57,139 nt of DNA from Candidatus Doudnabacteria bacterium (lineage in GTDB: Bacteria; Patescibacteriota; Doudnabacteria; UBA920). Where the stretch lies: NCBI GenBank assembly GCA_016218585.1, contig JACRDK010000022.1, positions 1 through 57,139 of the forward strand, given 5' to 3'. Under the pieces are notes generated by a model. It did not search any database, was not told the DNA's origin, and worked only from the letters and a program-made list of their open reading frames with translations. Below are positions 1,513 through 52,395 of this stretch, piece after piece (position 1 is the first letter of the stretch; each line of letters opens with the position of its first letter). Both the position numbers and the translations under genes were made by a program.

Positions 1513-1624
1513 AATATCGCTGAATGACGCGGAACTTTACGCTGAATGACGCGGAAAGTACAGCATCGTTAATGTTTAGCTTCTGCGTATTTCCGCGTTA
1601 GATTCCGCGTACTTCCGCGTTTAT
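1513..1624. repeat. Family F1 (ACGCGGAA/TTCCGCGT) inverted-repeat element directly upstream of efp start
   Basis: Multiple acgcgga / ttccgcgt words arranged as two inverted arms, ending 3-8 nt before the efp ATG. Confidence 0.8.
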
Positions 1625-5341: not shown

Positions 5342-5365
5342 AATATGATACTAATATACGGATTA

Positions 5366-5450
5366 ATACAGATGATGCTGATAATACGGATATTTGTGAT
5401 CAGTATTATCGGTAGCATCTGCACGCATCAGTATATCAGTATCTCGTAAG
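5366..5450. repeat. Imperfect inverted-repeat element upstream of ychF
   Basis: gatgctgataatacggat ... cagtattatcggtagcatctgcacgcatcagtatatcagtat. Confidence 0.65.
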
Positions 5451-6941: not shown

Positions 6942-7232
6942 ATGTCCGCAGAACGAAGGTCTTCGCCGGAGGAAATAGTTCGCACATTATATGTATCAGA
7001 CTTGGAAGATAAAGATCTTAGAGAGTTGGCCAGTTATATAAGAGCTAACAGAATTAATATTAATCAGGTAATGCTGCAAGAAAAGGGCAGGATATCCGCG
7101 GGATATGAAAAGTTTATTATTGATTTTGGAGACGGGCAAATTGCATTTCGGCCAAATGAAGGGAATATAATTGTTTATGGAACCCCGGAAATTTTTTTAA
7201 AAAAGCTAAGAGAAATAGACCCACATATATGA
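6942..7232 (+). CDS. Hypothetical protein (96 aa), ATGA-coupled to phosphomannomutase
   Basis: SD aaagg; 4-nt overlap ATGA with the next ORF. Confidence 0.7.
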   Translation: MSAERRSSPEEIVRTLYVSDLEDKDLRELASYIRANRININQVMLQEKGRISAGYEKFIIDFGDGQIAFRPNEGNIIVYGTPEIFLKKLREIDPHI

Positions 7233-8656
7233 ATATCGACACATCTATATTTAAAGCTTATGACATCCGGGGAATTTACCCAGAGCAAATTAATGCTGAT
7301 CTGGTATATAAAATTATTCAAGGTTATGTCCAGTTAATAACGCGGAAGGACGCGGAAACTAACGCGGAAGGACGCGGAAATTTTTTGGTTGTCGTGGGGC
7401 ATGATATGCGCCTTTCCGGCGAAGAATTCAGCGAGTCGGCAATTAGCGCTTTAACAGATGCCGGAATTAATGTTATAGATATTGGCCTGGTTTCTACCGA
7501 CCAGCTGTACTTTGCCGCGGCAACATTGCCTGTGGCAGGCGGAATTCAAATTACCGCCAGCCATAATCCAAAAGAATTCGGCGGAATGAAATTAGTTCGT
7601 GCTAAGGGAGCGCCAATTTCCGGCGACAGCGGAATATATGAAATAAGGGATATGGTAATTTCCAATTTCCAATTTCCAATTTCCAAAAATAAGGGGAAGG
7701 TGGAGAAGAAAGATATAAAACAAGAATATTTTGACCATGTTTTTAAAACTTTTGACGTTAGCAAAATTAAACCGCTGAAAATTGTTGCCAATACCAATTT
7801 TGGCATGGCGACCCAGGTAATTGATGAGTTGAAAAAAAGGTTGCCCATAGAATTTTTAGAAGTGGTTAATCCGGAATTAGACGGCAATTTTCCTAAAGGG
7901 CCATCCGATCCATTATTGCCCTCTAACCGCGGCGAAACTATTGCTGCAATAGAAAAGTTGCATCCCGATTTCGGCGTTGCCTGGGACGGTGATGCCGACC
8001 GTTGTTTCTTTTTTGACGAAAATGGCAAATTTATTACCCCGGCATATATTAATGCCTTGCTCGCCGGATATTATTTGCAAAAATACCCTGGCGGAAAAGT
8101 CTTGCACGATACGCGCGTGGTAAGAGTGATTGACTATGCCATTGCGCAGAATCACGGCGTGGCCATTATGAACAAAGCAGGGCATTCTTTTATTAAAGAG
8201 AGAATGGCTAAAGAAGATGCGGTGTTTGGCAATGAAACCTCCGGCCATTATTATTTTAAAGATAATTTTTATTTGGATAACGGTTTGTTTCCGCTGCTGG
8301 CTGTCCTGGATATTCTTTCTACAGAAACACAAAAAAATTCACTACAGATGCCTACAGAAGCGAAGCCGATGACGTTTTCGGAGTTGTTAAAGCCGCTGCG
8401 CGAAAAGTTTTATATATCCGAGGAAATTAATTTTGAATTTACAAACACGAATATTTTGGAAGATATAAAAAACAAATATTCAGATGCGGAAATAGATAAT
8501 ACCGACGGATTTAGTTTTAGCTATCCTTCCTGGAGATTTAATGTCAGAAGTTCTAATACCCAAAATTTGCTGCGCTTGAACTTAGAAGCTGACAGCGAAG
8601 AGTTGCTAAAACAAAAAACCGACGAGTTAGTCGGATTCATAAACGAAGTTAAATAG
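7229..8656 (+). CDS. manB: Phosphomannomutase/phosphoglucomutase
   Basis: FKAYDIRGIYPEQ, GIQITASHNPKEFGGMKL, GVAWDGDADRCFFFDENG, FGNETSGHYYFKD. Confidence 0.95.
   Translation: MNIDTSIFKAYDIRGIYPEQINADLVYKIIQGYVQLITRKDAETNAEGRGNFLVVVGHDMRLSGEEFSESAISALTDAGINVIDIGLVSTDQLYFAAATLPVAGGIQITASHNPKEFGGMKLVRAKGAPISGDSGIYEIRDMVISNFQFPISKNKGKVEKKDIKQEYFDHVFKTFDVSKIKPLKIVANTNFGMATQVIDELKKRLPIEFLEVVNPELDGNFPKGPSDPLLPSNRGETIAAIEKLHPDFGVAWDGDADRCFFFDENGKFITPAYINALLAGYYLQKYPGGKVLHDTRVVRVIDYAIAQNHGVAIMNKAGHSFIKERMAKEDAVFGNETSGHYYFKDNFYLDNGLFPLLAVLDILSTETQKNSLQMPTEAKPMTFSELLKPLREKFYISEEINFEFTNTNILEDIKNKYSDAEIDNTDGFSFSYPSWRFNVRSSNTQNLLRLNLEADSEELLKQKTDELVGFINEVK
7338..7382 (+). repeat. In-frame F1 words inside phosphomannomutase
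   Basis: aacgcggaaggacgcggaaactaacgcggaaggacgcggaaa encoding TRKDAETNAEGRGN. Confidence 0.8.
7653..7687 (+). repeat. In-frame F7 tandem (aatttcc)n inside phosphomannomutase
   Basis: ggtaatttccaatttccaatttccaatttccaaaa encoding VISNFQFPISK. Confidence 0.75.
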
Positions 8657-18773: not shown

Positions 18774-18794
18774 GATGGCTAGTCTGTTGTTATT

Positions 18795-18895
18795 TACTAA
18801 ATACGAATTTGTACTAATATACTAATCTTTATTTTATTAAAGATATAAAGGCTTTTGAATTAGTATATTAGTATTTATTAGTACTTAGTAAAAAT
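18795..18895. repeat. Family F3 (tactaatatactaat) inverted-repeat element upstream of uvrA
   Basis: ttactaaatacgaatttgtactaatatactaat ... attagtatattagtatttattagtacttagtaa then aaatATG. Confidence 0.85.
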
Positions 18896-25086: not shown

Positions 25087-25169
25087 ACTCAAGAATTAGG
25101 AGTTTAGAATCAAGAATTAGGTTTTAGGCCTTTCATGATTCATAATTCCTGATTCATAATTCACGACCT
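25087..25169. repeat. Family F4 (aatcaagaattagg/cataattcctgattc) element upstream of rplS
   Basis: actcaagaattaggagtttagaatcaagaattagg ... tcatgattcataattcctgattcataattc. Confidence 0.75.
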
Positions 25170-35913: not shown

Positions 35914-35926
35914 TTAACTGTTTTTA

Positions 35927-36013
35927 CTAAATTCTAATATGTACTAATATACCAATCTTAAACAGCGCGCATTAGTATATTGGTAAATAATTAGTATTTA
36001 GTAAAGAAAATTT
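35927..36013. repeat. Family F3 element upstream of grpE
   Basis: actaaattctaatatgtactaatataccaatc ... gcattagtatattggtaaataattagtatttagtaaag. Confidence 0.85.
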
Positions 36014-44376: not shown

Positions 44377-44385
44377 AGAGATTAC

Positions 44386-44480
44386 TAATACGCGATACAA
44401 ATATACTAATTTACTAATGTTAACGAAATAAAGACATTAGTTATCATTAGTCTTCATTAGTATATTGGTATCTTTTATTA
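44386..44480. repeat. Family F3 element upstream of methyltransferase
   Basis: actaatacgcgatacaaatatactaatttactaatg ... cattagttatcattagtcttcattagtatattggtat. Confidence 0.75.
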
Positions 44481-48615: not shown

Positions 48616-50142
48616 ATGAACATTAGGGGATTTTTCACAAAAAAGAAAATAATTTGGACAGTAATAATTTTACTGGTCGTTTTGCCAATCGCGTATAATA
48701 TTTTAAAACCAAAAGACAACAGCGCCAACATTGTTACAGATGTTGTAAAAAAACAAGACATAAAATATACCGTTTTAGCTACCGGACAGGTTGTTTCCGA
48801 AACCGACTTGAACTTGAGTTTTAAAACCAGCGGCATTGTCCAGCAGGTTAGAGTTAAAGAAGGGGACAAGGTTAAAGCCGGACAAATTTTGGCCAGCTTG
48901 GATCAAAAGGACCAGTTAGCCAGCCTTACCTCCGCCCGCGGCGCGCTTTCTTCCGCCCAGGCCAACTACAATAAAGTTTTGTCCGGAGCCAGCAACGAAG
49001 AAATTTCCGTAGCTCAGGTGACTTTAGACAATGCCAAGAGCTCATTGGATAATACTATTAAGCAACAGCAAGTATTGGTAGACAGCGCTTATAAAGCTTT
49101 AATGAACTCAGGTCTTTCCGCTATTGCCGGTTCAGGCAATACCGGTTCGGTAACTTCTACTGTTTCCGGTACATATACCGGCAAAGACCAGGGCGTTTAC
49201 AAAATTTCTATTTATTCCACCGGAAATGGTTTGCGTTTTCAGGTTAATGGTTTAGAAACCGGCGATGGTTTGGTGGATGTAACTCCGCAGCCAATTGGCA
49301 CCAAGGGTTTGTTTATCCAATTTTCCTCCACCAGCGTGCCAACAAACAACTCTTGGACAATAACAATTCCAAATACTCAATCTTCTTCTTACGTTACGGC
49401 ATACAATGCTTATAACTCTGCTTTAGAAACTCAGAGAAGCGCCGTGTCTGCCGCTCAGAATGCTGTTTCTTCCGCTCAGGCATCTTTGGATTTGAAAAAA
49501 GCCCAAGCCCGCCCGGCAGACTTAGAAGCCGCCCAGGCGCAGATTTTAAGCGCGCAGGGACAAGTTTTGGCTGCTCAGTCGGCTTTCGATAATACTATGA
49601 TAAAAGCTCCGGCCGATGGCACCATTACTTCGGTAGACGTTAAAGTTGGCGAACTCGCCTCAGCTTTAAAAGAAGTAGTGATTTTACAGGATGTTGGCAA
49701 TTTGCACGTTGAAGCCAATATTAGCGAGGCCAACATTGCTTCTTTAAAGCCTGATCAATCGGTAGATATTACTTTGGATGCTTTGGGGCCGGACAGACAT
49801 TTTACCGGCAAGGTTCAAACTGTAAATCCGGGGGCAACTGTCGTCTCAGGCGTAGTAAACTATAAAGTTACCGCCAGTGTCGACAATATTCCCGAAGTAA
49901 AACCGGGGATGACAGCCAATATGACTGTTTTGGTAGCGGAAAAGAAAAATGTTTTGGCTATGCCGCTCCGCGGTATTATTTCCAAAGACGGAAAAAAATA
50001 TGTCCGCGTAATTACCGACAGCAAAAAGAAAACCTATAACGAAGTAGAAGTTACAACCGGCCTGGAAGCAGATGAAGGCTTGGTGGAAATCCTCTCCGGC
50101 TTAAATGACGGACAAGAAGTTGTGACATATATAAAACAATAA
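48616..50142 (+). CDS. HlyD/MacA-type efflux RND/ABC periplasmic-adaptor-like protein
   Basis: VLATGQVVSETDLNLSFKTSGIVQQVRVKEGDKVKAGQILASLD; coiled coil; IKAPADGTITSVDVKVGE. Confidence 0.92.
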   Translation: MNIRGFFTKKKIIWTVIILLVVLPIAYNILKPKDNSANIVTDVVKKQDIKYTVLATGQVVSETDLNLSFKTSGIVQQVRVKEGDKVKAGQILASLDQKDQLASLTSARGALSSAQANYNKVLSGASNEEISVAQVTLDNAKSSLDNTIKQQQVLVDSAYKALMNSGLSAIAGSGNTGSVTSTVSGTYTGKDQGVYKISIYSTGNGLRFQVNGLETGDGLVDVTPQPIGTKGLFIQFSSTSVPTNNSWTITIPNTQSSSYVTAYNAYNSALETQRSAVSAAQNAVSSAQASLDLKKAQARPADLEAAQAQILSAQGQVLAAQSAFDNTMIKAPADGTITSVDVKVGELASALKEVVILQDVGNLHVEANISEANIASLKPDQSVDITLDALGPDRHFTGKVQTVNPGATVVSGVVNYKVTASVDNIPEVKPGMTANMTVLVAEKKNVLAMPLRGIISKDGKKYVRVITDSKKKTYNEVEVTTGLEADEGLVEILSGLNDGQEVVTYIKQ

Positions 50143-50238
50143 TTAACGCGGAAAAGCGCGGAATTTCACGCAGAAAGACGCAGAAATACTGCAGTCTTCC
50201 GCGTTAGTCCGCGTTAAATTCCGCATCATTCTGCGAAT
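50143..50238. repeat. Family F1 element upstream of macB-type ATPase
   Basis: ttaacgcggaaaagcgcggaatttcacgcagaaagacgcagaaatactgcagtcttccgcgttagtccgcgttaaattccgcatcattctgcgaatATG. Confidence 0.9.
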
Positions 50239-50955
50239 ATGAGTTTAATCAAAGTAGAAAATTTACAAAAAGATTATATAAATGAAGAAGTCGTGACTTC
50301 GGTTTTGCACGGCCTGACTTTTGCCATTGAGCAAGGAGAGTTTGTGGCAATTATGGGGCCGTCCGGCAGCGGTAAATCTACCTTAATGCACATATTAAGT
50401 TTTTTGGATCGCCCGACCGGGGGATTGTATGAGTTTAAGGGAAAAGATATTAAAGGATTTGACGACGATTATTTGGCGGCTTTGCGCAACGAAGAAATTG
50501 GTTTTGTTTTCCAATCTTTTAACCTGTTGTCGAGAACCTCGGTGCTTGATAACGTTAAGCTGCCTTTAATTTACAGCAAGAAAAAGAACCACGATGAGCT
50601 TGCAAAAAAAGCTTTGGACAGCGTTGGTCTTTCGCATCGTTTGAATTTTTTTACTAACCAAATTTCCGGTGGAGAAAAACAGCGCGTGGCAATTGCCCGG
50701 GCTTTGGTTAATGATCCGGCGGTTATTTTTGCGGACGAGCCGACGGGAAACTTAGACAGCAAGAGCGGTAATACCGTTATGCAAATTTTGCAAAAATTAA
50801 ATGACGACGGCAGAACAATTATTTTGGTGACCCACGAAATGGATACCGCCAACCATGCCAAGAGAATTATTCGCGTTAAAGACGGAAATATTATCGGCGA
50901 CGAAAAAGTGCTTAAGAGAACAATTGCTTCCCCGGATAAAGAACTGGTTAAATAA
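50239..50955 (+). CDS. ABC transporter ATP-binding protein, MacB/LolD type
   Basis: [56 protein letters not shown]. Confidence 0.95.
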
Positions 50956-51032
50956 GAATTAAGAATCTGGAATTATGAATCAAGAATGGGCCCATTGCCT
51001 TAATTCTTAATTCATCATTCATAATTCTAAAA
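50956..51032. repeat. Family F4 element upstream of MacB-type permease
   Basis: gaattaagaatctggaattatgaatcaagaatggg ... cttaattcttaattcatcattcataattc. Confidence 0.8.
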
Positions 51033-52304: not shown

Positions 52305-52315
52305 CGAAAAAAGCC

Positions 52316-52394
52316 GCAAGTTAATAAAGTTATCAAGTTCTTCGAGTCCTTATAACTTTACAAACTTGATAGACTTGATAACTTGAAAAACTAC
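52316..52394. repeat. Family F6 element upstream of second permease
   Basis: caagttaataaagttatcaagttcttcgagtccttataactttacaaacttgatagacttgataacttg. Confidence 0.8.
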
Positions 52395-52395
52395 T

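Follow-up and report, generated by a model that had tools for sequence, protein, structure and literature searches.

An eight-word palindrome dispersed between genes of a Candidatus Doudnabacteria genome

The window analysed here (the whole contig of 57,139 nucleotides) carries, in this order, genes for a MacA/HlyD-type fusion protein, for an ABC ATPase and for a permease of the MacB type (assigned with Pfam). The entire gap between the first two, with the stop codon ending at 50142 on one side and the ATG at 50239 on the other, is occupied by an imperfect palindrome of eight words (50143-50238), and the sequence that an earlier note had quoted for it is present exactly as given. This palindrome is a member of a repeat family, denoted F1, whose copies and parts in the window are as follows:

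1513-1624, minus strand: full F1 copy, from rpsR to efp; 117 bits in the covariance model search
7338-7386, plus strand: solitary F1 left arm within the phosphomannomutase gene, inserted in frame and contributing about 12 amino acids
40305-40403, plus strand: full F1 copy, from the DUF3467 gene to dnaJ; 99 bits
50143-50238, plus strand: full F1 copy, from the macA-like stop to the ATG of the ABC ATPase; 109 bits, E 8e-27
50146-50185, plus strand: left arm of this copy, with the words ACGCGGAA, GCGCGGAA, ACGCAGAA and ACGCAGAA; direct reading
50186-50196, plus strand: loop with CTGCAGT, common to the dnaJ and ftsE-ftsX copies
50197-50235, plus strand: right arm of this copy, with TTCCGCGT, TCCGCGT, TTCCGC and TTCTGCG; direct reading

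In an F1 element, which is about 100 nt in size, four words of 8 nt are followed by a loop and then by four words in inverted orientation; no ORF is contained within the 96-112 nt of the copies. The words follow one another at a spacing of about 10-12 nt, with the left arms mostly arranged as word-2-word-4-word-2-word, and the copies start with TTAACGC, ATAACCGC or TAAACGC. In the copy at 50143-50238, the right arm ends 3 nt before the ATG. Folded as RNA, this copy reaches -40.7 kcal/mol (z = -6.0, with none of the shuffled sequences equally stable); because all the words are alike, the minimum-energy fold is partly shifted in its register, pairing left words 1-2 with right words 1-2.

A covariance model was built from eight F1 copies and searched against the 1.19-Mb genome, whose size and gene content point to a member of the candidate phyla radiation. 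It recovers these eight full copies with E values from 4e-31 to 4e-23, scores that follow by construction given that the model was derived from the same copies, along with a single arm-only copy; no other full copy turned up. Each of the eight spans the interval between a stop codon and the ATG that follows it, within co-directional gene pairs, namely, macA-macB, DUF3467-dnaJ, rpsR-efp, infA-rpmJ, rplF-rplR, rplX-rplE, ftsE-ftsX and the gap before ftsA (the genes of the first three sites were checked by Pfam, and the remaining names come from reading the translations). The single, start-proximal architecture that the earlier note had proposed for this family thus extends to every full copy of the genome, and the absence of the element from start-proximal positions elsewhere, which the note had named as a point against it, is not observed. 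The copies before dnaJ and efp, pointed out for their similar architecture, are both homologous to the one at 50143-50238, and the CTGCAGT loop is found in the latter and before dnaJ. Two of the F1 copies are 94.6% identical despite lying at different gene pairs, and loops are common to subsets of copies, so that the copies descend from one element rather than having been invented independently. An Rfam scan of the window brings only two tRNAs to the gathering score, and F1 matches no known Rfam family.

Words of this kind also occur inside genes, where only arm-only arrays are found and no full palindrome lies in frame. The phosphomannomutase insertion site is empty in 5 of the 8 homologues; two relatives (G001 and G015) have other inserts there, and the G001 insert is built of other words than those in the present genome (G000), which suggests that words can be rewritten in place. 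A second in-gene word slot is seen in the same gene (window 7229-8656), with NFQFPIS in G000 and G016 and SGQWLVDSGQ in G001. Arm-only CGCGGAT words also lie within a dinB-like polymerase gene of G001 (L153:2200-2240). Hairpins could, accordingly, be thought to grow where they stand, with replication slippage multiplying a word and fold-back copying rendering the arms complementary, so that transposition is not needed; the build of the arms from repeated words, the arrays of single arms in coding sequences and the different words of G000 and G001 at the phosphomannomutase site all fit such a process. It fails, however, to account for the same words, spacing and loops at eight loci and for a vocabulary common to the sites within one genome, which call for dispersal or conversion between loci, and growth in place is accordingly quite unlikely as the explanation of F1.

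F1 is one vocabulary among many in this genome. Long imperfect hairpins were collected with an inverted-repeat alignment scan (arms of at least 26 nt, with dinucleotide shuffles as the control); the alignment score was used instead of a minimum-free-energy list, which is too noisy for long gaps. There are 233 such loci genome-wide, and 174 strong windows (score of at least 20) compared with 0 in the shuffles. Other word vocabularies include ATACTAAT, ATACAGAT, GAATTAAG, CACGAATT, AAGTTATC and GGGTATAG, and whole elements of many of these other families are likewise copied between loci. Hairpins with other vocabularies occur in the window itself at 2434-2522, 5347-5443, 18793-18892, 25087-25169, 35914-36013, 44377-44480, 50955-51028 and 52305-52395. 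The class is present in all types of gaps, with 1.05 hairpins per kb in co-directional, 1.00 in convergent and 0.62 in divergent gaps, compared with 0.03 in coding sequences; the equal density in convergent gaps rules out a purely operon-internal function of the hairpins. In some convergent gaps, an ordinary terminator sits in the hairpin loop. One of these, at 852-951 of the window, has the word arms AGCTTATAGCTT around the terminator, a layout that is also seen at C17:16272 and C30:43252. F1 itself is not an intrinsic terminator: no U-tract follows the stem and the sense strand has no terminator-like site.

The earlier note implied a start-adjacent element that acts on the downstream gene. 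This reading lacks support, as the hairpins lie with their left edge close to the stop codon in more cases than with their right edge close to the start (gene calls came from a simple script, so that start positions are approximate), and the hairpin density in convergent gaps counts against it as well. The observation that no Shine-Dalgarno (SD) sequence lies between the hairpin and the ATG is true but uninformative, because SD-like motifs are rare throughout the genome (18% of the genes have an SD-like 4-mer, compared with 13% in the control window). In the genome as a whole, 65% of the genes have a T at -1 of the start context, and there is little SD signal despite an intact 16S anti-SD.

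The F1 model also matches relatives, other families included, in which the same four-plus-four plan is combined with genome-specific word endings. A significant hairpin is present in 13 of the 17 rpsR-efp gaps compared, in 9 of the 14 DUF3467-dnaJ gaps and in 49 of the 105 site-genome combinations of the spc operon, where the gaps are either short and devoid of a hairpin or about 80-130 nt long and contain one. Occupancy in this operon ranges from 5 of 5 sites in G002 and G010 to 0 of 6 in G012, G014, G015 and G021, with the gaps short throughout in G012 and G021 and mostly so in G014. Across 40-kb samples of 20 relatives, the load varies between 0 and 45 hairpins per 100 kb. When hairpins are compared by the mean Jaccard index of their 6-mers, those from different sites of the same genome score 0.077, those from the same site in different genomes 0.042 and those differing in both 0.039, the last value being the background. 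Thus, judging from the sequences, the words of a hairpin go with the genome that carries it rather than with the site; the conservation upstream of the same gene that marks cis-regulatory leader RNAs is missing among these relatives, with same-site likeness barely above background. At orthologous sites, the element is absent or replaced, and relatives within the family with unrelated words or nothing in the same gaps weigh further against the start-adjacent regulatory reading. In a relative from another family (G035), an F1-like element lies immediately before the 16S rRNA gene (L086:1501-1599).

Pairing of the arms at invariant word positions proves nothing by itself, because the words are alike. 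Within the genome, the word centres form Watson-Crick pairs in only 10 of 32 cases, compared with 13.7 expected under random dealing and with 170 of 176 at the other word positions; these mispaired centres, too, speak against the regulatory reading of the earlier note. Across genomes, the covariation that the note had called for does exist: for 27 elements from many genomes, the score between arms is 0.153 compared with a shuffled mean of 0.087, none of the 500 shuffles being as high and slid controls reaching at most 0.070, although the score, which comes mostly from word ends, may be inflated by relatedness. The polarity of F1, scored without the flanks, matches transcription in all 18 copies with an assignable gene direction, and such constancy is not expected from free insertion of a palindrome.

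Constant polarity and arm covariation, together with the stable fold, the stop-to-start position of all eight full copies between co-directional genes and a sense strand without a terminator U-tract, are what would be expected of a functional intercistronic RNA, a hairpin that joins stop and start or shields the mRNA and so would promote ribosome re-initiation or set an expression ratio. Such a function nevertheless appears rather unlikely, given that the same gaps in relatives lack the element or contain unrelated words, that the hairpin class is equally dense in convergent gaps and present in divergent ones, that one F1-like copy directly precedes a 16S rRNA gene, and that the word centres mispair while the remainder of the words pair. 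Alternatively, the words, conserved while their centres vary and spaced by 10-12 nt or about one helical turn, might be candidate binding sites for a protein (a regulator, a nucleoid protein or a DNA-uptake receptor), with the hairpin being secondary. This is very improbable in view of the small number of full copies (only eight), the wealth of other vocabularies in this genome and the lack of conservation of the sites between genomes.

Among known systems, REP and REPIN elements, which owe their mobility to RAYT (Y1) transposases, resemble F1 in being extragenic, hairpin-forming imperfect palindromes that are dispersed in one genome and form genome-specific families (PMC3116915, PMC2817692). 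F1 differs from them in its eight repeated 8-nt words, about eight copies, a lack of the GTAG foot and a location away from the single Y1 gene. MITEs such as Correia and ERIC are likewise short, non-autonomous intergenic palindromes that are transcribed with their neighbours (PMC10969869). As in MITEs, F1 has terminal inverted repeats and no ORF, the arms being inverted along their whole length, but these arms are arrays of short words, and neither a parent transposon (in a search for Y1_Tnp) nor a target duplication was found. By eye, the flanks of the F1 copies have no common target-site duplication, in a comparison made without a closely related empty site. The palindromic elements of Rickettsia also comprise several families in a small genome, with in-frame insertions in genes (PMC10969869), whereas F1 enters genes only as single arms and its full elements are exclusively intergenic. 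Borg repeats are similar fast-turnover repeats of short units that also occur within proteins but are tandem direct repeats, whereas F1 is inverted and dispersed (PMC9879509). A search of the open-access literature on palindromic repeats in genomes of candidate phyla turned up no account of the class to which F1 belongs.

The genome encodes a single Y1 transposase, which is RAYT-like (C29:54244-54657, minus strand, locus L068). This gene is flanked on both sides by the palindrome GTAG / CGATTTATCG, of the kind GTAG..CCGATTTATCGG, which recurs in the genome, and the gene and its flanking palindromes are likely to be a RAYT-REP pair unrelated to F1. A GTAG foot is a feature of REPs; neither GTAG nor GTGG is found at the 5' foot of the F1 copies. 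A link between F1 and this transposase is ruled out, as the Y1 gene has a REP pair of its own and no F1 element next to it; at four Y1 loci of relatives, the F1 model has no matches, and the transposase search of the genome, which covered Y1_Tnp, yielded no mobilising enzyme for F1.

F1 shares with REPs and REPINs the trait of dispersed, extragenic, imperfect palindromes, and it is probably a non-autonomous dispersed palindromic repeat that behaves like a REPIN or a MITE. Shared loops and near-identical pairs show that entire F1 elements were duplicated from one locus to another within the genome, presumably by transposition or conversion; an enzyme acting in trans and gene conversion between existing copies would each fit. 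The copies would persist where insertion does least harm, that is, in short gaps between genes, so that inside operons they would come to span stop to start. Many such families with different words are present in the genome, and relatives of the same taxonomic family have other vocabularies or nothing at these sites. Once transcribed, F1 is expected to form a long imperfect hairpin in the mRNA, and any effect on the neighbouring genes would be incidental. More tentatively, F1 might represent a previously undescribed class of mobile hairpins, characterized by arms in which a short word occurs four times, a separate trans-acting enzyme or recombination process for each vocabulary, polarity relative to transcription, and genome-wide turnover of the vocabulary in slots that stay the same, both between and within genes.

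If F1 is indeed such a dispersed repeat, much of the spacing inside the operons of these compact genomes would be made up of palindromic repeats that are dispensable, and not of regulatory leaders, so that a start-proximal hairpin in them should not be taken for a riboswitch or an attenuator. The combination of a constant slot with changing words would then offer a comparative system for the spread and homogenisation of short palindromic repeats within a genome.
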